From: Candidatus Accumulibacter appositus | GTDB taxonomy: Bacteria; Pseudomonadota; Gammaproteobacteria; Burkholderiales; Rhodocyclaceae | NCBI GenBank assembly: GCA_000585055.1 | Contig: JEMX01000028.1 | Span: 126,015-190,014, forward strand | Direction: 5' to 3' | DNA: 64,000 bases | In this document: positions 31,248-43,096 of the stretch, piece after piece | Layout of the letters: each line of letters begins with the position of its first letter | How positions within the stretch are numbered: the stretch's first letter is position 1 | Made by a program: the position numbers and the translations under genes | The notes under the pieces: generated by a model | What the model was told of the DNA's origin: nothing | Database searches by the model: none | Seen by the model: only the letters and a program-made list of their open reading frames with translations

Positions 31248-32726
31248 TCAGCCCTGGTCCCAGGGTGCCGGATGACTGAGGAATTCGCTCAGCATGGCGT
31301 CCAGCTGACCGAGGAGGAGGTCGCTACGTCCGGCCAGCCAGGCCCGAACGAGATCGCTGTGGTGCCCCGGCAGGGCTTCCGCGACTAGATGTTCGGCAAC
31401 GGCGAAGTCGTTCATCCGGCCGAGCAGGTCGAGCAGCCCGGCCGCACTCTCCTGATAACGCTGCAGGCGGCGGGCGGGGAACAGCGGGGCAAAGAACTCG
31501 AGCGCATAACGCAGTCGTTTCAGCGCCTTGCGCAAGTCGTGCCGGGCTTCCGGATTCGAGTCCTTGGTCAGGACGGCCAGTTCGGCGACCTTCTTGGCAC
31601 GCTTGGTCAGCGAACGCGGGGCAAACAGGGTCAGCGCCGGCTTTTTCTTTTCCGGCAGGGCGACCGTCGCCGCAGTGAACTCGAGCAACAACTGCGAGTA
31701 GCTGGGGGATGCGATTGCCGCCTGCGCTGCCTTGCGGCAGGCGGTCAGCTGGATCGCCGCTTGCTTGGCAACTGCCTGGACGTCGCTGTGATCGGGAAAA
31801 GCCTTGCTGATCGGTGGCAGGACCTCGGTGATAAAGACGTCCCAATTGCGTGTGTCGCCGAGTTGCCCGGCGAGCGTACTCCAGCGTGGGTCGAATTCAC
31901 TGACGTATTCTGCCGGCAGCAGCGGTCGCCAGAGTCGAATTGCCGAACGCAGGCGACGGATCGAAACTCGCGCCTGATGGACGAAGCCCGGATCGTCGCT
32001 TTCACGTGCGCCGCGTTCGTTGCCCTGCAACTGCATCAGGCAGGCGAAGACCGTGCTACGAAAGACCCCGATGCTCGACATGCCCAATTGCAGCTGCGCG
32101 TCGGCGGCCTTGGCCGGCTTGCGCTCCGTGTTGGCGGCGAGGCGATAGCCGCGCTCGGCCTTGCTGGGGTTTTCGGGGTGCAGCGGTAGATCTTTTTGCA
32201 GGGCCATGGCCACCTCAAAGAGATCGGCGACGCTGCCTTCGAGCAGTTCGAGCTCGACTTCGCAGATTGTCTCCTGGCGTCCGTCGGAGTCAATTTTCCC
32301 ACGGTCCAGAGAAAGCTCGATGCGTGTCCCTTCCTGGGGAGCGAGCAGCCAGCTGAGGCGCGTGAAGTCGGTACTGAACAGTGGGGCCAGTTCCGGCCTT
32401 GCCGCTTCGAGGAAGCGGCGCAGCTTCGGATTATCGACATGTGAAAAATCGAAGTCGCCCGGTTGACCGGGAACCTCCCATTCATTGCGTTGTGCCAGGC
32501 CGCCGGGTGACGGTGCATCGCTCTTGACGGTCAGCAACCACTCCGCGCCCTTCTGGCGGTAGCGCACGGCAATGCGTTTTGCCTGAAGTCGTCGGTCGGG
32601 AGTGTCGTAGTAGGTGCTGATCAGCTTCTGGCGGTGCGACTGGGTATTCGCCAGTATCGGGTGTGCCGGAAGCCTTCGCGCTGCGCTGGCGGGAATGCTC
32701 AGCTTGATCTCGGTTTCCAGTGCCAT
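31248..32726 (-). CDS. CYTH-CHAD protein, predicted triphosphatase / polyphosphate-binding
   Basis: 492 residues. The N-terminal CYTH domain (about 1-200) starts with the ETEIKL signature and has YYDTPDRRLQ, RYRQKGAEWLLTVKS and RIELSLDRGKI, the charged tunnel strands of triphosphate-tunnel enzymes. The C-terminal CHAD domain (about 215-490) has conserved His/Arg helices: VHQARVSIRRLRSAIRLW and ARHDLRKALKRLRYALEFF. CYTH proteins hydrolyse triphosphate or polyphosphate, and CHAD domains bind polyphosphate granules. In a polyP-accumulating host, granule association is a reasonable inference. dacB is next in the same direction. Confidence 0.9.
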   Translation of the reverse strand: MALETEIKLSIPASAARRLPAHPILANTQSHRQKLISTYYDTPDRRLQAKRIAVRYRQKGAEWLLTVKSDAPSPGGLAQRNEWEVPGQPGDFDFSHVDNPKLRRFLEAARPELAPLFSTDFTRLSWLLAPQEGTRIELSLDRGKIDSDGRQETICEVELELLEGSVADLFEVAMALQKDLPLHPENPSKAERGYRLAANTERKPAKAADAQLQLGMSSIGVFRSTVFACLMQLQGNERGARESDDPGFVHQARVSIRRLRSAIRLWRPLLPAEYVSEFDPRWSTLAGQLGDTRNWDVFITEVLPPISKAFPDHSDVQAVAKQAAIQLTACRKAAQAAIASPSYSQLLLEFTAATVALPEKKKPALTLFAPRSLTKRAKKVAELAVLTKDSNPEARHDLRKALKRLRYALEFFAPLFPARRLQRYQESAAGLLDLLGRMNDFAVAEHLVAEALPGHHSDLVRAWLAGRSDLLLGQLDAMLSEFLSHPAPWDQG

Positions 32727-32768: not shown

Positions 32769-33461
32769 TCAGAGATCATAGTTGCGTAGTGCATCGACAT
32801 CGGCGATGTGGATTCGTCGCCCGTCGACGACGATCAGGTCTTTTTCCGAGAGTTCGTGCAGGATGCGCGAGAAATGCTCCTGCGTCAGATTTAGGCGCGA
32901 GGCGATGACGCCCTTGTTGGTCGGCAGCGTGATGGTGATCTCCTTCTCACCGTCCTTGCTTTCCTCGCGCAGCAGGTAGCCGATGATTCGCCGGCGGCCC
33001 GAATGCAGCGAGTAGGACTCGACGTCGTTCATCAGCTGGTGCAGGCGCATGGACAGTCCGGCGATCATCTTGCGGCCGAGTTTGGGATCGGCATCCAGTT
33101 CTTCGTTGATCGCCGCCTTCGAGATGTGCAGCACCAGCGAGTCTGCCAGCGCCTGTGCATAAACCATGAAGGGCTTGTCGGTGAACATCACCGCTTCGCC
33201 GAAGGTTTGCCCCTGCGGCAGGATGTCGACGACTTTTTCGCCGCCTTGCGGCGAGGTGAACGCCAGCTTCACCTGGCCATAGACGATCAGGTAGAAGCCG
33301 GTCGGGGTGTCGCCCTTGTGGAACAGAATGTCGCCACGGCTGGCATTGATTTCGCGTGTGCCGCGAGCAAGGCGTGCGATTTCCTCGTTTTCCAATTCAT
33401 TGAACAGCGGTACGTGCGCCAGCAGCGCTTCAATATTGATGCCCGGTTGGGACGAGTGCAT
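32769..33461 (-). CDS. Crp/Fnr family transcriptional regulator
   Basis: 230 residues: cyclic-nucleotide-binding-like beta roll (about 15-130, LFHKGDTPTGFYLIVYGQVKLA), dimer helix, and a winged HTH with NKGVIASRLNLTQEHFSRILHELSEKDLI as the recognition region. No N-terminal Cys cluster is present, so it is not an iron-sulfur FNR; it is closer to Dnr/NnrR- or CRP-type sensors. The divergent partner is the heme-copper oxidase gene (230 bp between the two start codons), which makes an NO- or redox-responsive role plausible. No clear TTGAT-N4-ATCAA box was found between them. Confidence 0.88.
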   Translation of the reverse strand: MHSSQPGINIEALLAHVPLFNELENEEIARLARGTREINASRGDILFHKGDTPTGFYLIVYGQVKLAFTSPQGGEKVVDILPQGQTFGEAVMFTDKPFMVYAQALADSLVLHISKAAINEELDADPKLGRKMIAGLSMRLHQLMNDVESYSLHSGRRRIIGYLLREESKDGEKEITITLPTNKGVIASRLNLTQEHFSRILHELSEKDLIVVDGRRIHIADVDALRNYDL

Positions 33462-33689
33462 AAGCGGTTTCCGAAACGGTCAGGCAGAAGCAGGAGAATC
33501 TTTGGGCAACAATATTCGCATTTGTGCTCGCCGGGGGCAAGTGATCTTCAGCAGCGCTTCGCTCATCGGCCTGGCCGCCGCCAAAAAATGACATGTTGAT
33601 TACTCGCGGAAGGTGGCGGGTGGCGCATGGCGTTTGGCATATCGTGCGGCCTGGCCGTATACTCAGGCGATTTTTTGAGCGAGGCAGTT

Positions 33690-35087
33690 GTGGATTCGAA
33701 CGTCGTGACGCTTAGTTCGGAAGCACCTTTGGTGCCGGAAATATCTGCAGGCACGCCCGCTAGGCTGGCGCGTGCCTGGTTGTGGTTGGGGGTGATGGCG
33801 CTGATCGGCTCCGGCTTGTTGGCGGTGCTGCTGGTCCTGTCGCGAACGCCCGGCATTCAGGACGTCTTCCCGCTAAAGGATCTGTTCCGCGCGGCGCTGG
33901 TGGTGCACGTCGACCTGTCCGTGGCGGTGTGGTTCATGGCTTTTGCCGCGGTCATCTGGTGCGCACTTGGCAGGAGCGGGCTGGCCTGGCTGGGTTGGAG
34001 CGGTTTCGCCCTGGCCGCCCTGGGCACTGCGCTGATGACCATTTCACCGTTCTTTCCGGGCGCCGAGCCGGTGCTCAACAATTACATCCCGGTGTTGAAG
34101 CAGCCGCTGTTCTTTACTTCGCTGTGGATCTTCGCCGCCGGCATGAGTCTGGCGGTGCTGCGCGCCTTGATCACCACCTGGCCGCACCGCTTTCTCGGTG
34201 AACCGCTGCGCCTTGGCGCTTTTTTGGGTGCGGTCGCCGCTTTCCTGGCGCTGGCCGCGTTCTACTGGTCGTGGCTACTGGTGCCCGAAGTCGAGGGAAC
34301 GATTTATTACGAAGTGATGTTCTGGGGAGGCGGTCACACCCTGCAGTTTCAGCACGCCTTGCTGATGGTCGTTGCCTGGCTGTGGATCGCCGCGGCGCTG
34401 GCGCGCCCGTCGGCGGCATCGCCACGGGCGGTGTCGGTGCTTTTCCTGGTTGCCGCCTTGCCGCTACTGGCGGTGCCGGCGATCTATGTGTTGTTGCCGG
34501 TCGGCGAGCTGCCGCATGTCGAGCTGTTCGCCAAGTTGATGGAGTGGGGCCATCCCTACATGGCACCGCTGATCCTGCTCGGCGCCCTGTCCTTGTGGGG
34601 AGTGCGCACGCTGCCGGCAGAGCCGGCGAAGTCGGCGTTTGTCGCTTCTTTCACCTTGTTTGCGCTCGGTGGTGTCCTCGGCTACATGATCCACGGTGTC
34701 AACGTCGTTATCCCGGCGCACTATCACGGCTCGACGGTTGGCGTCACGCTGGCCTTCATGGGGCTGGCCTATGTGCTCCTGCCTGGCCTCGGCTTCGGCC
34801 CGGTCGAGGGTCGCATGGCGCTTTGGCAACCCTACGTCTATGGTGGCGGTCAGTTGATCCACGTTCTCGGCTTGGCCTGGTCGGGAGGCTACGGCGTGCA
34901 GCGTAAGGTCGCCGGTGCCGAGCAGATGCTGACCACCCTGCCGCAGAAGATTGGCATGGGAATGATGGGCCTCGGTGGCTTGATTGCGGTCATCGGCGGC
35001 CTGATGTTTGTTCTGGTGTGTCTGAAGACCATGTCACAGTGGCGCGCGCAGCTCGTGGAGAAGGTCGAAAAGGAGCGGCGGGCATGA
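33690..35087 (+). CDS. Atypical heme-copper oxidase-superfamily subunit I
   Basis: 465 residues from GTG 33690, which has a GAGG ahead; an ATG at 33627 adds 21 residues. Twelve transmembrane helices can be drawn. Likely heme/metal ligands (numbered from GTG): H73 in VVHVDLSVAVWF (helix II), H216 in WGGGHTLQFQH (helix VI), and H344/H346 in IPAHYHGSTVG (helix X HxH). Departures from oxidases: helix VI has HTLQF where HPEVY carries the cross-linked Tyr, and no HH pair follows; only isolated H276 and H288 (EWGHPYM) are there. No CuA or diheme subunit is adjacent. A TlpA-like gene overlaps its end. Assignment to the superfamily is solid; O2 versus NO chemistry is open. Confidence 0.8.
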   Translation: MDSNVVTLSSEAPLVPEISAGTPARLARAWLWLGVMALIGSGLLAVLLVLSRTPGIQDVFPLKDLFRAALVVHVDLSVAVWFMAFAAVIWCALGRSGLAWLGWSGFALAALGTALMTISPFFPGAEPVLNNYIPVLKQPLFFTSLWIFAAGMSLAVLRALITTWPHRFLGEPLRLGAFLGAVAAFLALAAFYWSWLLVPEVEGTIYYEVMFWGGGHTLQFQHALLMVVAWLWIAAALARPSAASPRAVSVLFLVAALPLLAVPAIYVLLPVGELPHVELFAKLMEWGHPYMAPLILLGALSLWGVRTLPAEPAKSAFVASFTLFALGGVLGYMIHGVNVVIPAHYHGSTVGVTLAFMGLAYVLLPGLGFGPVEGRMALWQPYVYGGGQLIHVLGLAWSGGYGVQRKVAGAEQMLTTLPQKIGMGMMGLGGLIAVIGGLMFVLVCLKTMSQWRAQLVEKVEKERRA

Positions 35088-35671
35088 ACCAGCAGCGCGC
35101 GCTGTGGGTGGCGGTGGTCGCCGGCGTGCTGACCGTGGCCACCGTCGCGCTGCTCGCCTATCGCGTCCTGGTCCTCGGCGGCTTGCCTCCCGGCGACACG
35201 ATTCCCGACAGCTTGCGCTCGCCGCCACAAGTCTCGCCAGCAGAAGCGCAGGCCGAAGTCGACGCGCTCATGTCCCTGACCCTCGACGATCTTGACGGTG
35301 CTCCGCAGGCCATGGCGCAGTGGCGGGGCAAGATCCTGGTGGTCAATTACTGGGCCAGTTGGTGTAAACCCTGCGTCGAAGAAATGCCTGCATTTTCGCG
35401 CCTGCACGGCCGCTACGCCGCGCAGGGCGTGCAGTTTGTCGGCATCGGCATAGACGAAGTCGACAACATGCGCGCCTTCGTCAAAACGACAGCGGTGTCC
35501 TATCCGCTACTCGTTGGCGGCAGGAATGCCAGCGAGACGCCGGGCCTGCAGGTCAAGGCGCTGCCCTATACGGTGGTCATCAGGCGTGATGGGCGCTTTG
35601 AAAGCAGTCGCCTTGGGCGCCTTGATGAGGTGACGCTGGAAGCGCTACTGAACCGGCTGATCGGGCACTGA
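35084..35671 (+). CDS. TlpA-family thiol-disulfide oxidoreductase
   Basis: 195 residues from ATG 35084, overlapping the oxidase-like gene by ATGA. One N-terminal membrane anchor (ALWVAVVAGVLTVATVALLAYRVLVLG) and a periplasmic thioredoxin fold with active site WASWCKPC (YWASWCKPCVEEMPAF) and the cis-Pro loop KALPYTV. TlpA/ResA proteins reduce apocytochromes or copper-site cysteines. Coupling to the oxidase-like gene suggests a role in maturing its partner. Confidence 0.88.
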   Translation: MNQQRALWVAVVAGVLTVATVALLAYRVLVLGGLPPGDTIPDSLRSPPQVSPAEAQAEVDALMSLTLDDLDGAPQAMAQWRGKILVVNYWASWCKPCVEEMPAFSRLHGRYAAQGVQFVGIGIDEVDNMRAFVKTTAVSYPLLVGGRNASETPGLQVKALPYTVVIRRDGRFESSRLGRLDEVTLEALLNRLIGH

Positions 35672-37497: not shown

Positions 37498-38133
37498 TCA
37501 GGGCCTGGCGACGCGTCGCAGGAAGCTGCGTCGTGCGGGAAGCAATAGGTTGGGGGCCACTGCGGCTGGCGTTGAGGGTTCCTCCGCCGGCATGCCGAAC
37601 ATTGCATTCAGCGCGGCCATCGCCCCTGCACGAGCTGCCGCCTGCGAGGCGAACTGGCCCGGTGGTGCAAACAGCGGGCAGTATTGGAGGGCCGGAATCT
37701 CGGCGCTCGCGTCATCGTCGGCGATGAATTCCAGAGGGCCGATGGGAAAAACCAGTTGACAACGTTCGCCGGACGGACGGTCAGACCACAAATCGCCGCC
37801 ACCGGGCAAGATCAAGAGATTGATGAACCAGGGGGTGATCATCGCGCCCACCCAATCGCCAAGCAGGTCGTCGCTGACGCCTTCCCGGTTGTCCGTTGCC
37901 TGCGCATGTGCATCGCCATTCGGCCTGCTGGCACTCGCCGTCGCCAGCCGCCAGCGACGGAACCCGAGGGCTTCGACGGACAGGGCGAGGTTGACAAAGG
38001 GCAGGTCGCGCATGTTGGCACGCCAGATACGGCGGTACATGGCTTCGAGGCGCGACGCCGGATTGCTGGTGATCGGCTTCGCCGGGGGGGGCTGTGTGGC
38101 CTGGAAAGCTGCCTTGCGAATGCCAGGTGTCAT
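37498..38133 (-). CDS. hybE: [NiFe]-hydrogenase assembly chaperone HybE
   Basis: 211 residues. The HybE core is visible: RLEAMYRRIWRANMRDLPFVNLALSVEALGF, then VGAMITPWFINLLILPGG and CQLVFPIGPLEFIAD, ending in SFLRR. The rubredoxin domain found in some HupJ/HybE proteins is absent. The chaperone holds back Tat export of the large or small subunit until maturation is complete. Start overlaps the hypC stop by ATGA. Last gene of the hyb operon. Confidence 0.87.
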   Translation of the reverse strand: MTPGIRKAAFQATQPPPAKPITSNPASRLEAMYRRIWRANMRDLPFVNLALSVEALGFRRWRLATASASRPNGDAHAQATDNREGVSDDLLGDWVGAMITPWFINLLILPGGGDLWSDRPSGERCQLVFPIGPLEFIADDDASAEIPALQYCPLFAPPGQFASQAAARAGAMAALNAMFGMPAEEPSTPAAVAPNLLLPARRSFLRRVARP

Positions 38134-38441
38134 GGAAGCGTGCTCCGTGCTTGTCTCGGGGTGTGTAGATCGGAAAAATGCTTTGTGGCGTCGTAGTCGC
38201 CGGCGACCGAGGCGTCGAGCGCGGCAAGTGCGTCTTCAATCAATGCCAGCTCGCGATCGTCGAGGATTTCCTGGGCCAGGCCGAGCGAGGCCAAAATCCA
38301 GGTGCCAACGGCTTGTGGGCCGATCAGCATCATGTTGATCCGCTCGCGCCGCAGTGCGCCTCCCTGTCGCCGCTCGGCAATGGCGAAGTCACCGTTCTCA
38401 TCCTCCAGTGAGACCAACTGCAGCGGGATCGACAGGCACAT
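38130..38441 (-). CDS. hypC: Hydrogenase maturation chaperone HypC/HybG
   Basis: 103 residues from ATG 38439-38441; the first residues are MCLSIP, whose Cys2 binds the Fe(CN)2CO precursor. The frame's upstream extension would bury this Cys, so it is rejected. The ending is longer than in typical HypC (about 80-90 residues). Position within the hyb operon suggests the HybG paralogue dedicated to this hydrogenase. No hypABDEF genes are in the window. Confidence 0.9.
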   Translation of the reverse strand: MCLSIPLQLVSLEDENGDFAIAERRQGGALRRERINMMLIGPQAVGTWILASLGLAQEILDDRELALIEDALAALDASVAGDYDATKHFSDLHTPRQARSTLP

Positions 38442-38492
38442 CAGGCGGCCTCGGCAGTTAATGTGAAAGTCGCGCAAGCGACTCACGAAGCT

Positions 38493-38517
38493 CCCTTCTC
38501 CCCTCGCGGGAGAAGGG
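38493..38517. repeat. REP-like palindrome between hypC and hybD
   Basis: A perfect 10-bp inverted repeat (CCCTTCTCCC ... GGGAGAAGGG, 5-base loop) flanked by further G-rich sequence (GGTTGGGGAAGAGGG). It looks like the dispersed REP-type elements common in proteobacteria. It sits in the 105-bp gap inside the operon and has no U-run. Confidence 0.6.
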
Positions 38518-38546
38518 TTGGGGAAGAGGGGGAACGGTCATGACAT

Positions 38547-39053
38547 TCACCATCTAGGTATCTCGCTGGTCTTGACCGTCAGTTGCCGCGCCCGCATTCC
38601 CAGCATCGCCAGTTCGTCGACCAGCATGCGCAGCACGGTCGGGATGGCCTTTTCTACTTCCGGGCTGAGTTCCATTCCCAGCGCCAGCGAGCGTGGCTGG
38701 ACGCCGAGAATGGCGGTGTATTTCGGTGCCTTGCCGAGAAGCTCCAGGGTCGCCAGCACATCGCAAAGGCCGATCTGGTGTGGCGACAACTTGGTCTTGA
38801 AGAACACTGGCACGGCATCGCCAACGAGCCGGATCGGCGTGCCGGGCGGCTGACCGCCACGAATGGCATCAATCATGAACAAGGCGTCGAGATCTTCAAG
38901 CGCATCGAGCATTTCCATGCCACAGGTGCCGCCGTCGATGATTTCGACTGCGCCGGGCAGCAAGTAAGCCAGTGGCAGACGCTCGATGGCGTGCACGCCG
39001 AGCCCTTCATCGCTCAGCAGAATGTTGCCGGCACCCAGTACGACGACGCGCAT
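38547..39053 (-). CDS. hybD: Hydrogenase maturation protease HybD
   Basis: 168 residues. VVLGAGNILLSDEGLGVHAIERL carries the first nickel-ligating Glu, IDGGTCGMEMLDAL the Asp, and LSPHQIG the His, matching HybD/HyaD proteases. It removes the C-terminal extension of HybC after nickel insertion. A good Shine-Dalgarno (GGGAG) precedes the ATG; the gap to hybC is 82 bp. Confidence 0.92.
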   Translation of the reverse strand: MRVVVLGAGNILLSDEGLGVHAIERLPLAYLLPGAVEIIDGGTCGMEMLDALEDLDALFMIDAIRGGQPPGTPIRLVGDAVPVFFKTKLSPHQIGLCDVLATLELLGKAPKYTAILGVQPRSLALGMELSPEVEKAIPTVLRMLVDELAMLGMRARQLTVKTSEIPRW

Positions 39054-39135
39054 GTTCAGTTCTCCCGGCAGGATCGATGAGCGCTTCGCGTGCTGTACTC
39101 GCTACCGTCGCGCCGCACGCTGAGGACGATGGCCA

Positions 39136-40839
39136 TCACGCCGCCTTGACCTTGACCACCTGCCGCTTCTCGGTATCGACTACATGGACCGCGCAGGCCA
39201 GGCAGGGATCGAAGGAGTGCACGGTGCGCAGCACTTCCAGCGGCTGATCGGGAATGGCCACCGGCGTTCCCGCCAGGCAGGCCTCGTAGGCGCCGGGCGC
39301 ATCCGCCTCGTTGCGCGGCGCAGCGTTCCAGGTGGTCGGTACGACGCACTGGTAGTTCCTGATCTTGCCGTCGTCTATGACCACCCAATGCGAAAGGACG
39401 CCGCGCGGCGCTTCGTGGATACCGACGCCAGCAACTTCGTCCTTCGGAAAGACCGGCTTGTTGAAAGTGTTCAGGTCGCCCTTGGCCATGTTGGCCAGCA
39501 GCAGATCCCATTGCCGCGCCAGTTCGTCGACCTGCACCGCGCAGCCGACGGCACGCGCCGCATGACGGCCGATCGTCGAGTGCAGCGCGTCGAGACCGAC
39601 CTTGGTCTTGGCGACCGTGGATACCAACTCAAGTGTTTGCGTTGCGTAGACGATTGTCGGCTGGTGTTGCGCGGCGACCATTGCTAGCACGCGTGGCAGC
39701 GGACCGACCTGCATCGGCTGGCCGTAGAAAGTCGGAGATTTCAGCCACGAGTACTTGCCCTCATCCTCGAAGTCGGTGTATTGGGGTCTGGTTTCGCCCT
39801 TGTAAGGATGCAGCGGGCCTTTGCCACCTTCGTACCAGGAGTGCTTCACCGATTCGGCGACGCCGTCCCTGAAATAGGCGTCGTTGTGGGTCTTGATCTC
39901 CTTGAAGCTGCTCAGGTCGCCCGCGGAGATATGCCCGCCGGGTAGGGCAAACTGGGTGTTCTTGCCGTCAAGCGGGATATCCGGTACCGAGACGTAGTCG
40001 ACGATGCCGCGTCCGATGGTCGTCCACTCGGGGTAGAAGCCACCGATCACGGCGACATCAATCAGGTAGACGTTCTTCACGAAATCGCTGAGTTGGTCGA
40101 TCCAGCCCTTGACCGCCAGCAGACGTTCGACGGTCAGCACCGACTGCGAATCAATGGACAGCGCATTGGCGACGCCGCCAACGGCGACGTTCTGGATATG
40201 CGGCGTCTTGGCGCCGAGGATGCTGACGATCTTGTTGGCGTGTCGCTGCACTTCCAGCGCCTGCAGGTAGTGGGCGACGGCGATCAGGTTTACTTCCGGG
40301 GGCAACTTCATCGCCGGGTGTCCCCAGTAGCCATTGGTGAAAATCCCCAGTTGTCCGGTGCCGACGAAGCCCGCCAAGCGTTCTTTGACGCGGGTAAATT
40401 CGGCCTTGCTGTTGCCCGGCCAGCTGGACAAGCTTTCGGCCAGGGCTGCTGCCTTGCCCGGGTCGGCCTGCAAGGCGCTGGTGACATCAACCCAGTCGAG
40501 CGCCGAGAGATGGTAGAAATGGACGATATGATCGTGAACCGCATGCGCCAAGATGATCATGTTGCGGATGTACTGGGCATTGAGTGGTATTTCCATCTGC
40601 AGCGCGTTCTCGACGGCACGCACCGAGGCGATGGCGTGAACCGTGGTGCACACGCCGCAGATGCGCTGGGTGATGGCCCAGGCATCGCGCGGGTCGCGAC
40701 CGACGAGGATGGTTTCGACACCGCGCCACATCTGGCCGGAAGCCCAGGCTTTCTTGACCTCGCCGCCGTCGACCTCGACATCAACACGCAGGTGACCTTC
40801 GATTCGCGTGACCGGATCAATCGTGACTCGTTGCGACAT
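39136..40839 (-). CDS. hybC: [NiFe]-hydrogenase large subunit
   Basis: 567 residues from ATG 40837-40839 (MSQRVTIDPVTRIEGHL), preceded by GAGGAGACAGG; the much longer open frame upstream is a shadow of hybB. L1 signature RICGVCTTVH and L2 signature DPCLACAVHV provide the four Ni-Fe cysteines. The 15 residues after the His are the peptide removed by HybD. Periplasmic H2 activation; exported with HybO as a folded dimer. Order and companions match the E. coli Hyd-2 class. Confidence 0.95.
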   Translation of the reverse strand: MSQRVTIDPVTRIEGHLRVDVEVDGGEVKKAWASGQMWRGVETILVGRDPRDAWAITQRICGVCTTVHAIASVRAVENALQMEIPLNAQYIRNMIILAHAVHDHIVHFYHLSALDWVDVTSALQADPGKAAALAESLSSWPGNSKAEFTRVKERLAGFVGTGQLGIFTNGYWGHPAMKLPPEVNLIAVAHYLQALEVQRHANKIVSILGAKTPHIQNVAVGGVANALSIDSQSVLTVERLLAVKGWIDQLSDFVKNVYLIDVAVIGGFYPEWTTIGRGIVDYVSVPDIPLDGKNTQFALPGGHISAGDLSSFKEIKTHNDAYFRDGVAESVKHSWYEGGKGPLHPYKGETRPQYTDFEDEGKYSWLKSPTFYGQPMQVGPLPRVLAMVAAQHQPTIVYATQTLELVSTVAKTKVGLDALHSTIGRHAARAVGCAVQVDELARQWDLLLANMAKGDLNTFNKPVFPKDEVAGVGIHEAPRGVLSHWVVIDDGKIRNYQCVVPTTWNAAPRNEADAPGAYEACLAGTPVAIPDQPLEVLRTVHSFDPCLACAVHVVDTEKRQVVKVKAA

Positions 40840-40862
40840 TTTCCTGTCTCCTCGAAAAAGCC

Positions 40863-42032
40863 TTAGCTGTGCGCAGGCTGGACGTAGCTTTCTTCGCGCG
40901 GCAGAACCGGGAAGCGGCGGGTGATGACGATGTAACCGAGGACTTCGGCGGCAAAAATGCCGATGGTGACCAGCAGTTCGGGGACCGATGGAAAATAGGT
41001 CCAGCCAGGGCCGGTATCGAAGGCGATCAGGAAGCCGTTCAGGCGCAGCAGGATGCCGCCGAGCATGACCGCGATACCGGCCAGAAAGAGGCGTGCCGGA
41101 TTGCGCCGCGCCTCGACGCTGCGGATCAGCAGGAAGGGGGCGATGAAGCAGGCGTTCTCGATCCAGAAGGTCAGGGCGATGAAGTCGGGTTGGAAGGCGA
41201 GCCGCAGTACACCGCGTGCGATGAGGTCGGCAAAACGAACCAGGAGGTAGAAGGCCATGATACCGAGCATCACTCTGGCCATCGGATTGAGCATCGAAAC
41301 CTCGACCTGACGCCGGTAAGCCGAGGCCGCGACGCAGGACTCGAAGAGCACGACGCCGTAGCCGAGGATGATCGCCGAGAGCAGGTAGATCAGCGGTTGC
41401 ATCGGCGTCTGCCAGAGCGGGTTGACCTGGCCACCCATGACCACCAGCATGGTCCCCAGTGACGCCTGATGCATCATCGGCAGGACGATGCCGAGGGCAA
41501 TGAAGAAGAACAGCAGCTTGCTCAGTTTGCGGCGCGCATCGTGCAGGCCCAGCTTCTCGAGAAACACCGGCGAGAACTCGATCCACATGACGATGATGTA
41601 CAGCGTGATGCAGGCGGCGACTTCGAACATCACCGAATTGACATTGAAGTAGCCCGGCCAGAAGATGTGCCAGAAGTTCCACCAGCGACCGAGGTCGAAA
41701 GTGATCGCCGCACCGGCCAGGGTGTAGCCGAAGAGGCTGCCGAGCAGTGCCGGGCGCACCAGCGGATGGTACTGGCCCTTGTTGAAGATGTAGACCAGCA
41801 AGGCCACCGAGAAGCCGCCGCAGGCCAGCGCCGAGCCAATGAAGACGTCAACGACGACCCAGGCGCCCCAGGAGTAGCCGTCGTTGAGGTTGGTGGTGGT
41901 GCCGAGGCCGAAGATCAGGCGGACCAGAATGATCGTCGCCATGACCGCGATCAGAACGCCGCAGACCAGGGTCGTGGCGTTGACCAGGCTGCCACCGACC
42001 GGTGCCGGTCGGGCGTGTTCTTGAGTGCTCAT
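40863..42032 (-). CDS. hybB: Hydrogenase integral membrane subunit HybB (NrfD/PsrC family)
   Basis: 389 residues from ATG 42030-42032, which has AAGGAG six bases ahead within the end of hybA; the GTG two codons earlier is less likely. About ten transmembrane helices with NrfD-family features (YSWGAWVVVDVFIGSALACGGF, FDLGRWWNFWHIFWPGYFNVNSVMFE, and LPMMHQASLGTMLVVMGGQVNPLWQTP). It carries electrons to quinone together with HybA and may be energy-converting. A 2-bp overlap region suggests translational coupling with hybA. Confidence 0.93.
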   Translation of the reverse strand: MSTQEHARPAPVGGSLVNATTLVCGVLIAVMATIILVRLIFGLGTTTNLNDGYSWGAWVVVDVFIGSALACGGFSVALLVYIFNKGQYHPLVRPALLGSLFGYTLAGAAITFDLGRWWNFWHIFWPGYFNVNSVMFEVAACITLYIIVMWIEFSPVFLEKLGLHDARRKLSKLLFFFIALGIVLPMMHQASLGTMLVVMGGQVNPLWQTPMQPLIYLLSAIILGYGVVLFESCVAASAYRRQVEVSMLNPMARVMLGIMAFYLLVRFADLIARGVLRLAFQPDFIALTFWIENACFIAPFLLIRSVEARRNPARLFLAGIAVMLGGILLRLNGFLIAFDTGPGWTYFPSVPELLVTIGIFAAEVLGYIVITRRFPVLPREESYVQPAHS

Positions 42033-42034
42033 GA

Positions 42035-43096
42035 TCACTCCTTCCCTGGCTTGCTCGCTGCTGCCTGAGCGCTGGAATCATGCCCATCCTCGTCTTCGTG
42101 ATGGACGTTGCGTTTGGCGACGTAGGTCATCGCGCCGAGGACGGCAAAGGGCATCAGCAGGCCACCGTAGAGCGTGTGCTGGATGGTCTCGGAAGTTGCC
42201 GCCGACGACTTGGGCGGCAAATTCGGCATGCCGACCTTTGCGAAGGGCACTGCCGAGAGCTTGAGCACCTGCGTGCCGCCGTACTCGTGCTCGCCATACA
42301 CGTGCTGCTGGTAGTTGCCGACGTAGCCTTCGTAGCTCTGATCCGGGCCGCCGTCGATGCTGCCGCGCGGGTAGCGGGTGATGCTGCCGGCAGGGAGCGC
42401 CAGGCGGCGCTTGGCTTCGCTCAGCAGATCGCGGGTGCGCCCGTGCAGGGTCGCGCCGGTCGGGCAGACCTCGGCGCAGGCCGAGTAGTGGCCGTCGGCG
42501 ACGCGATGTCGACACAGTTCGCACTTGCCGATTTCGCCGGTCGGCGAGTCGTACTGGTACTTGGGAATACCGAAGGGACAGGCGACGACACAATAGCGGC
42601 AACCGACGCAGGCATCGGCGTCGTAGGCGACGACGCCGGTGACCGGATCCTTGGTCATCGCCGTCACCGGGCAGGCCGAAACGCACGAGGGGTCGGCGCA
42701 GTGCATGCAGGAAGTCTTCATGAACGCATAACCGTTGATCTCGGCGTCCTTGGTGGTCATCGTGCCGTGGCGGTACATCTTGATGATGTTGAAGGTGTTG
42801 CCGCTGGTATCGAGCGGCGTATCCCACAACTTGTCCGCGGTCGAGAACTCGGGCGGATTGTCGTTGGCCTGCTTGCAGGCAGCCACGCAGGCCTTGCAGC
42901 CAATGCACAGGGTGGCGTCGTAGAGCAGGCCAAGCGCCTCCGGCGGGCGCTGATAGGTCTCCCGCGCAGCAGCCGGCGCGCTGAGCGTGCTCAGGGTGCC
43001 GCTAGCGACCGCGGTGCCGGCGGCGCCGAGGCATCCTTTCAGAAAATTGCGGCGCGATTTTTCGTTGCGGCTCGCTGCAGAAATCTCGGCATGCAT
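42035..43096 (-). CDS. hybA: Hydrogenase iron-sulfur subunit HybA
   Basis: 353 residues. Tat signal (SRRNFLKGCLGAAGTAVA), then ferredoxin-like clusters: CIGCKACVAACKQAN, CMHCADPSCVSACPVTA, CVGCRYCVVACPFG and CELCRHRVADGHYSACAEVCPTGA, enough for four [4Fe-4S]. A C-terminal helix (LYGGLLMPFAVLGAMTYVA) anchors it in the membrane. It relays electrons from HybO to HybB. Its ATG overlaps the hybO stop region by one base spacing, with GGAGG ahead. Confidence 0.94.
   Translation of the reverse strand: MHAEISAASRNEKSRRNFLKGCLGAAGTAVASGTLSTLSAPAAARETYQRPPEALGLLYDATLCIGCKACVAACKQANDNPPEFSTADKLWDTPLDTSGNTFNIIKMYRHGTMTTKDAEINGYAFMKTSCMHCADPSCVSACPVTAMTKDPVTGVVAYDADACVGCRYCVVACPFGIPKYQYDSPTGEIGKCELCRHRVADGHYSACAEVCPTGATLHGRTRDLLSEAKRRLALPAGSITRYPRGSIDGGPDQSYEGYVGNYQQHVYGEHEYGGTQVLKLSAVPFAKVGMPNLPPKSSAATSETIQHTLYGGLLMPFAVLGAMTYVAKRNVHHEDEDGHDSSAQAAASKPGKE

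Follow-up and report, generated by a model that had tools for sequence, protein, structure and literature searches.

A gene at positions 33690..35087 (+) of the window, by which we mean the whole 64,000-nucleotide stretch of DNA analysed here, encodes a heme-copper-oxidase-like subunit I (HCOL) that appears to be CuB-less. What does such a protein do? The original prediction made it a candidate for an uncharacterised NO reductase. The frame is open from GTG to TGA at the predicted coordinates and encodes 465 aa; starting instead from the ATG at 33627, farther upstream, would lengthen the product to 486 aa. The sole Pfam match of HCOL is COX1 (1.9e-6, 27.4 bits, under the curated cut-off of 34.8). 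Nothing besides COX1 appeared in Pfam up to E 1; there was no signalling domain and no NnrS match, so NnrS was rejected as an identity. An NCBIfam scan gave no match, neither the sequence nor the profile of HCOL found anything useful among PDB sequences, and a plasmid search was equally fruitless. Scanning GTDB with a family alignment headed by locus L033 gave 570 relatives, of which the best 80 were kept (the named loci). The AlphaFold2 model, built from an alignment of 51 rows (A2; 50 of the 80 named loci and the window protein), has 12 long helices (pLDDT 85.2, pTM 0.89). Its best PDB match in Foldseek is the Thermus ba3 oxidase (E 1e-8, TM ~0.7, ~20% identity). HCOL thus has the 12-helix COX1 fold of heme-copper subunit I, with a Pfam score below cut-off, and its predicted place in the superfamily holds.

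The heme ligands expected from this fold are present. In the model H73 lies in helix II (33906..33908, +), H216 in helix VI and H344/H346 in helix X (34719..34727, +); these residues and the HTLQF and AHYH motifs stand where they were predicted. Residues were counted in 195 rows, that is, the query and 194 others, with the window protein present twice and partial and identical sequences left out. His occupies position 73 in 194/195 rows and positions 216, 344 and 346 in all 195. From the known HCO families we take H73 and H346 to be ligands of the low-spin heme and H344 that of the high-spin heme. Judged by sequence, then, the low-spin His residues of helices II and X and the high-spin His of helix X are all retained by the family. 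R405-K406 (34902..34907, +) stands where A, B and sNOR rows have an Arg-Arg pair that presumably contacts the heme propionates; position 405 is Arg in 194/195 rows and 406 is Lys in 193/195.

The CuB site is different. In one alignment the columns of the CuB His pair read H-H in sNOR (12/12), B (2/2), A (10/10), C (6/6) and cNOR/qNOR (4/4) rows; in HCOL they hold I265-Y266 (34482..34487, +). All 34 control rows have both His and none of the 195 HCOL rows does, so the six-His signature is absent and the predicted lack of an HH pair is borne out. Every one of the 195 rows misses at least one of the three metal-binding His. Y266 therefore sits at a CuB His place, and this position varies: Tyr in 144 rows, His in 24 and Phe in 11. 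In a per-group tally, where contexts containing identical rows are under-counted, it is Tyr in 77/78 named sNOR-operon rows and 25/25 genus-group rows, His in 22/29 phylum-sample rows and Phe in 8/10 rows of the f225 group (which also held L268 and L269). Two results tell against the loss of the pair. In L069 and L109, both close relatives, an HH follows 3-4 residues further on, in the loop, next to an intact Y266. The hhalign alignment of HCOL with NorY places a gap over the NorY HH and does not pair it with I265-Y266; the multi-family alignment crosses helix VII without that gap. The original prediction had put H276, H288 and E285 in place of the pair. We rejected a CuB site rebuilt in this way: among 141 relatives His is found at position 276 in 129 and at 288 in only 30, Glu at 285 in only 12, and no conserved substitute emerges.

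Helix VI (H216-F220, 34335..34349, +) keeps the CuB His and has lost the Tyr/Glu-type residue. The +4 residue is Phe in 186 rows, Tyr in 4 and others in 5, in agreement with the predicted loss of the cross-linked Tyr (HTLQF for HPEVY). Phe also occupies this column in cbb3 rows (5/6), because the cbb3 Tyr is in helix VII. That Tyr falls at column 259 in 6/6 cbb3 rows; HCOL rows have mostly Val, Leu, Ala or Ile, and Tyr is absent from the commonest residues listed for 34 of them; a cbb3-type Tyr was therefore rejected. Hence the window protein has the cross-linkable Tyr of the oxygen reductases neither in helix VI (A and B) nor in helix VII (C). NO reductases (c, q, e, g, s and b types) are described, in passages of PMC3475470 and PMC8756737, as keeping three metal-binding His (or two and an Asp) and as having Glu, Gln, Asp or Asn for the Tyr. 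The HCOL family, over its 195 rows, does not show this replacement. H216 and Q219 are kept although the HH is missing. Taken together, HCOL seems to have two intact heme sites, with near-invariant ligands, but neither the CuB pair nor a Tyr at either of the known positions.

We placed HCOL in a tree of 68 rows (IQ-TREE, LG+C20+F+G4). Its 34 HCOL rows, taken from the 195, group in a single clade (100/100) whose sister is sNOR (100/95); the stem is long (2.03), which makes long-branch effects possible. The 12 sNOR rows, so labelled, like NorY, from gene order and not from a reference sNOR sequence, form their own clade (100/99) with HCOL outside it. Two ba3 rows come next outside HCOL and sNOR (100/98), and A, C and cNOR/qNOR rows are further off. 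A quick tree of 70 rows, 40 of them HCOL, agrees (sNOR sister at 94); the 68-row tree leaves out six of its long-branch rows. From loci L282-L311, 21 of 30 were used (six wrong-frame reads, two cbb3 and one HCOL were left out), and L312-L315 were added. HCOL thus stands as a clade of its own within the heme-copper superfamily, and of the families tested (A, B, C, cNOR, qNOR and sNOR rows, with eNOR, gNOR, bNOR and nNOR unrepresented) sNOR is its sister. It falls outside the A, B and C oxidase rows.

The known families share some features with HCOL and differ in others. With its sister clade, sNOR (NorSY), the likeness is broad: the HCOL profile aligns with NorY of the own genome's sNOR-type operon over residues 23-457 (hhalign probability 99.7%), and the heme ligands and helix VI H216/Q219 are shared. 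NorY retains the HH, carries Gln and Asn at the +4 and +6 positions of helix VI and is not nested with HCOL. The B-family ba3 oxygen reductases, the best fold match and the next branch out, have both the HH and the helix VI Tyr (2/2 rows). The cbb3 enzymes share the helix VI Phe but have HH and the column 259 Tyr in 6/6 rows and form a separate clade. The cNOR/qNOR enzymes share the superfamily and the NO setting; they differ by the HH (4/4), a helix VI HLWVE motif and a separate clade.

The gene is not decaying. HCOL is present in 27/28 genomes of the genus, the own genome included, and dN/dS has a median of 0.139 (range 0.063-0.251; 300 pairs from 25 sequences of the genus and one neighbouring genus). 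HCOL is under purifying selection. Among 369 genomes drawn evenly from the class it occurs in 46 at E < 1e-60, a threshold that drops, for example, G121 (1e-40). HCOL and NorY occur together in 28 of these genomes, HCOL only in 18, NorY only in 6 and neither in 317 (Fisher p 3e-24, which overstates independence, as do the other Fisher values, because the sampled genomes are related); the NorY total of 34 omits G421 (3e-71, a ba3-type protein with Tyr). Cytochrome cd1-type genes (PF02239: NirS and kin) were found in 37/46 HCOL genomes vs 37/323 others (p 6e-22). In genomes without NorY the counts were 10/18 with HCOL vs 33/317 without (p 9e-6). In a phylum sample, HCOL is present in 27/28 NorY-carrying genomes, with the own genome not counted. 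Some genomes (G547, G610, G635, G525, G207) hold two HCOL-family copies in different settings; in G207 one is beside NorY and one beside aa3 genes (L205).

In most of the named kin HCOL and NorY share an operon. Because these are the best 80 of 570 relatives of L033, the following counts are biased to that subclade and the 369-genome sample is fairer. In 61 of the 80 named loci, at least 7.5 kb of upstream DNA allowed a judgement. HCOL follows norS-norY-senC in an operon-like array in 60/61. NorS (the CuA subunit), NorY and SenC are each found in 60, CtaB in 59, and a ferredoxin-type cytochrome b and an orphan protein that we label 'DUF180' in all 61. The order norS, norY, ctaB, senC is kept in 57/61. 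The nearest upstream gene of HCOL is DUF180 in 52/79 loci and the cytochrome b in 27/79, at an estimated median gap of 47 bp. A CRP-type gene lies within the fetched stretch in 25/80. In print, as far as passages of the papers go, this order is named sNOR in ammonia oxidisers (norSY-senC-orf1 in PMC4940428; also PMC3772326 and PMC6967387), and the NorS-NorY-SenC array of Accumulibacter is named ba3/cbaAB (PMC6446978).

The array has further unusual members. It carries two cytochrome b fusions (L038:4455-6026 (-) and L034:10901-14374 (-), with like genes in L042-L121), one with 4Fe-4S and FlpD domains and the other with 2Fe-2S, FAD and NAD domains. These might feed the sNOR-type enzyme from NAD(P)H or ferredoxin. 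The 'DUF180' protein (L038:3965-4507 (-); L042:7866-8369 (+)) has no Pfam match; AlphaFold2 gives it a membrane helix and a beta sandwich (pLDDT 96), and that of L042 has conserved Cys55 and Cys76 and near-invariant His47 and His123. We considered a degenerate CuA subunit and rejected it on the basis of this predicted fold, the lack of a Pfam match and weak PDB matches, which are of unrelated type.

In the own genome the norS-norY array stands apart from HCOL, on contig C45. Elsewhere in the genus the array is near HCOL, with NorY in the fetched stretch of L165, L167 and L168 and further array genes in L166, L171 and L173; the same nearness is seen in another genus (L175). In the window, HCOL is coupled to a downstream gene for a TlpA/ResA-like thiol-disulfide protein (35084..35671, +; Pfam/NCBIfam), whose ATG at 35084 overlaps the HCOL stop (35085-35087), and the TlpA-like gene adjoins HCOL in 24/25 genus loci. 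The divergent gene (32769..33461, -) encodes a CRP/FNR-type regulator by Pfam and NCBIfam; it contains no Cys, as expected of a protein without an FeS cluster. A CRP-type gene lies within 1.5 kb of HCOL in 11/25 genus loci, most of which have flanks of only 1.5 kb. These neighbours, and the lack of an adjacent CuA or c-type gene in the window, are as the original prediction described them. A nirS-type gene is near HCOL in two genus genomes (L017/L159; L041). The Fig. 3 legend of PMC6446978 names, among other genes, nir, 'cyt', 'resA' and yicL around Accumulibacter denitrification genes, a set that resembles locus L041.

An FNR-like box before HCOL was sought and rejected; there is none between 33462 and 33689 at ≤2 mismatches. 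Over the whole window, the FNR-box-like TTGATNNNNATCAA is matched (≤2 mismatches) 32 times vs 12.1 expected, and 0/100 shuffles reach as high a count; codon usage may lie behind the excess, as the matches may lie in genes. Elsewhere in the window, 38130-42038 (-) is by eye a [NiFe]-hydrogenase cluster (HypC-like protein, maturation protease, large subunit, NrfD-like membrane protein), and 31248-32726 (-) encodes a CYTH and CHAD protein (Pfam), a pairing tied to polyphosphate metabolism. On contig C38 of the own genome (G000; L040:6389-8671), ~2.3 kb ahead of a nirS-type gene, a 760-aa heme-copper protein is encoded whose likeness to qNOR is in length only.

Outside the NorY operon the setting of HCOL changes. 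Among the 18 NorY-less HCOL genomes, aa3 genes or ctaB are found in 8 (L189, L190, L191, L194, L195, L197, L199, L203) and ResB/CcsA genes in 3 (L196, L201, L202). In one genome, 73% complete, DUF180 and a nirS-type gene are near HCOL (L187). The remaining 6 are without such neighbours (L186, L188, L192 with a Sco-like gene only, L193, L198 with 3.7 kb, L200). The aa3-type setting recurs in the window's family (L031, L032). In family f225, which may belong to the Zetaproteobacteria, ctaA follows HCOL in 8/8 loci and a CuA-motif protein is near HCOL in 7/8: a small one directly before it in L267 and L276, and one 1.4-5.4 kb away in L264, L265, L266, L270 and L277. L271 has no small CuA-motif protein, only a Cox2-like one. 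The CuA protein of L272 (family f263) begins at the stop of HCOL and overlaps its end. Of these CuA proteins, the ones from L276 and L272 score above the COX2 cut-off; the one from L267 has a sub-threshold match to Cupredoxin_1 and no other. A further HCOL subclade sits in ResB-CcsA/ccm cytochrome c clusters (L036, L037, L196, L201, L202, L204, L275). By eye, the frame L036:7456-9411 continues into an apparent TPR domain. CcsA/ResB and CtaA bind heme by His pairs. They are repeated neighbours of HCOL but belong to separate Pfam families, HCOL matching only COX1.

What, then, of NO reduction? The sNOR-type operon and the linkage to cytochrome cd1-type genes make NO metabolism a supported setting, and this part of the original prediction stands. 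The other part, that HCOL is itself the reductase, is not supported: the missing His and the helix VI Phe argue against it, and NorY, which keeps the HH in the same operon, is the simpler candidate. HCOL relatives end an operon for an O2/NO-reducing enzyme in many bacteria and have no copper site; hence HCOL is probably a heme-carrying partner. We infer, tentatively and with a little less than even confidence, that HCOL is not a terminal reductase and instead serves CuA-type NO/O2 reductases as a copper-free heme partner in electron transfer. We prefer electron transfer or modulation in the NorSY/aa3-type assembly because HCOL retains every heme ligand along with the propionate pair and CuA genes are repeatedly found close to it.

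By this mechanism HCOL would keep both heme sites, the CuB/FeB site having been lost, and would bind two hemes and no second metal, one heme via H73/H346 and one via H344. H216, freed from copper, may be a distal ligand or partner. HCOL would then pass electrons beside a CuA enzyme: NorSY, aa3 or perhaps, in some lineages, a small CuA protein belonging to HCOL itself. In the window's genus it would have left the sNOR-type operon, to stand now with the TlpA-like gene and, in two genomes, near a nirS-type gene. Against the electron-transfer partner, 18/46 HCOL genomes are without NorY, and neighbours there are oxidase or cytochrome c assembly genes. Against the idea of an own CuA protein, such a protein is directly adjacent in only 2/8 f225 loci. 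It is possible, but rather unlikely, that HCOL is a further functional class of the superfamily, a CuB-free subunit I that forms a CuA-heme-heme chain in some lineages with a CuA protein of their own (f225 genomes, L272). The chain would either carry electrons through the membrane to NorSY/aa3 or reduce NO or a different small molecule at one heme that has a distal His.

A close rival is an assembly or heme-handling role. Here a pseudo-subunit I would hold or hand over heme, or stabilise a partner, while CuA oxidases, sNOR and c-type cytochromes are built. The assembly-gene neighbours in NorY-less genomes (ctaB/aa3 genes in 8/18, ResB-CcsA in 3/18) fit this role equally well. Cofactor-assembly genes accompany HCOL in all settings: CtaB (59/61) and SenC (60/61) among the judgeable loci of the best 80/570, CtaA in 8/8 f225 loci and TlpA in the genus. 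An assembly role explains these cofactor-insertion neighbours about as well as electron transfer does. Against it, the enzymes themselves and two cytochrome b fusions of redox type are encoded in the operons too, and the complete heme-ligand set and propionate pair would suggest a redox role. We regard assembly as a doubtful but serious reading.

It is improbable that HCOL reduces NO (or another small molecule) at a new site, which would consist of one heme with H216 on its distal side and perhaps a metal held by H216 and Y266/H266. The sNOR-type operon, the cytochrome cd1-type genes (37/46 vs 37/323), the sister position to sNOR, H216 and Q219 kept without the HH and a second His at 266 in 24/195 rows are all consistent with it. 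However, the HH pair is in no row, the +4 residue is Phe in 186/195, residue 266 varies among Tyr, His and Phe, and an HH-bearing NorY is encoded in the same operon. That HCOL uses heme to sense NO/O2 or to regulate the respiratory cluster is very unlikely: the distal His is kept in 195/195 rows and a CRP-type gene is in the fetched stretch of 25/80 named loci (best 80/570) and divergent in the window, but the window protein has no signalling domain in Pfam, the regulator link is patchy and 33462-33689 holds no FNR-like box at ≤2 mismatches.

In the parts of the open-licence PubMed Central literature consulted, we found no mention of a heme-copper clade without CuB or of an HCOL-type gene in the sNOR operon. 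The HCO profile set listed in PMC11707229 (A, B1-9, C, NOR families, NOD) names no such class. HCOL is a subunit I without the binuclear metal site that is nonetheless conserved, with 46/369 evenly drawn genomes of the class carrying it, and it is tied to an operon annotated in print as an NO reductase or a ba3 oxidase. HMM-based counts of oxidases and NO reductases could mistake HCOL for either. The role of sNOR is disputed, and studies of sNOR should take in HCOL and the other unlisted operon genes. As the sister of sNOR, HCOL is a natural experiment: the heme-copper fold without copper.
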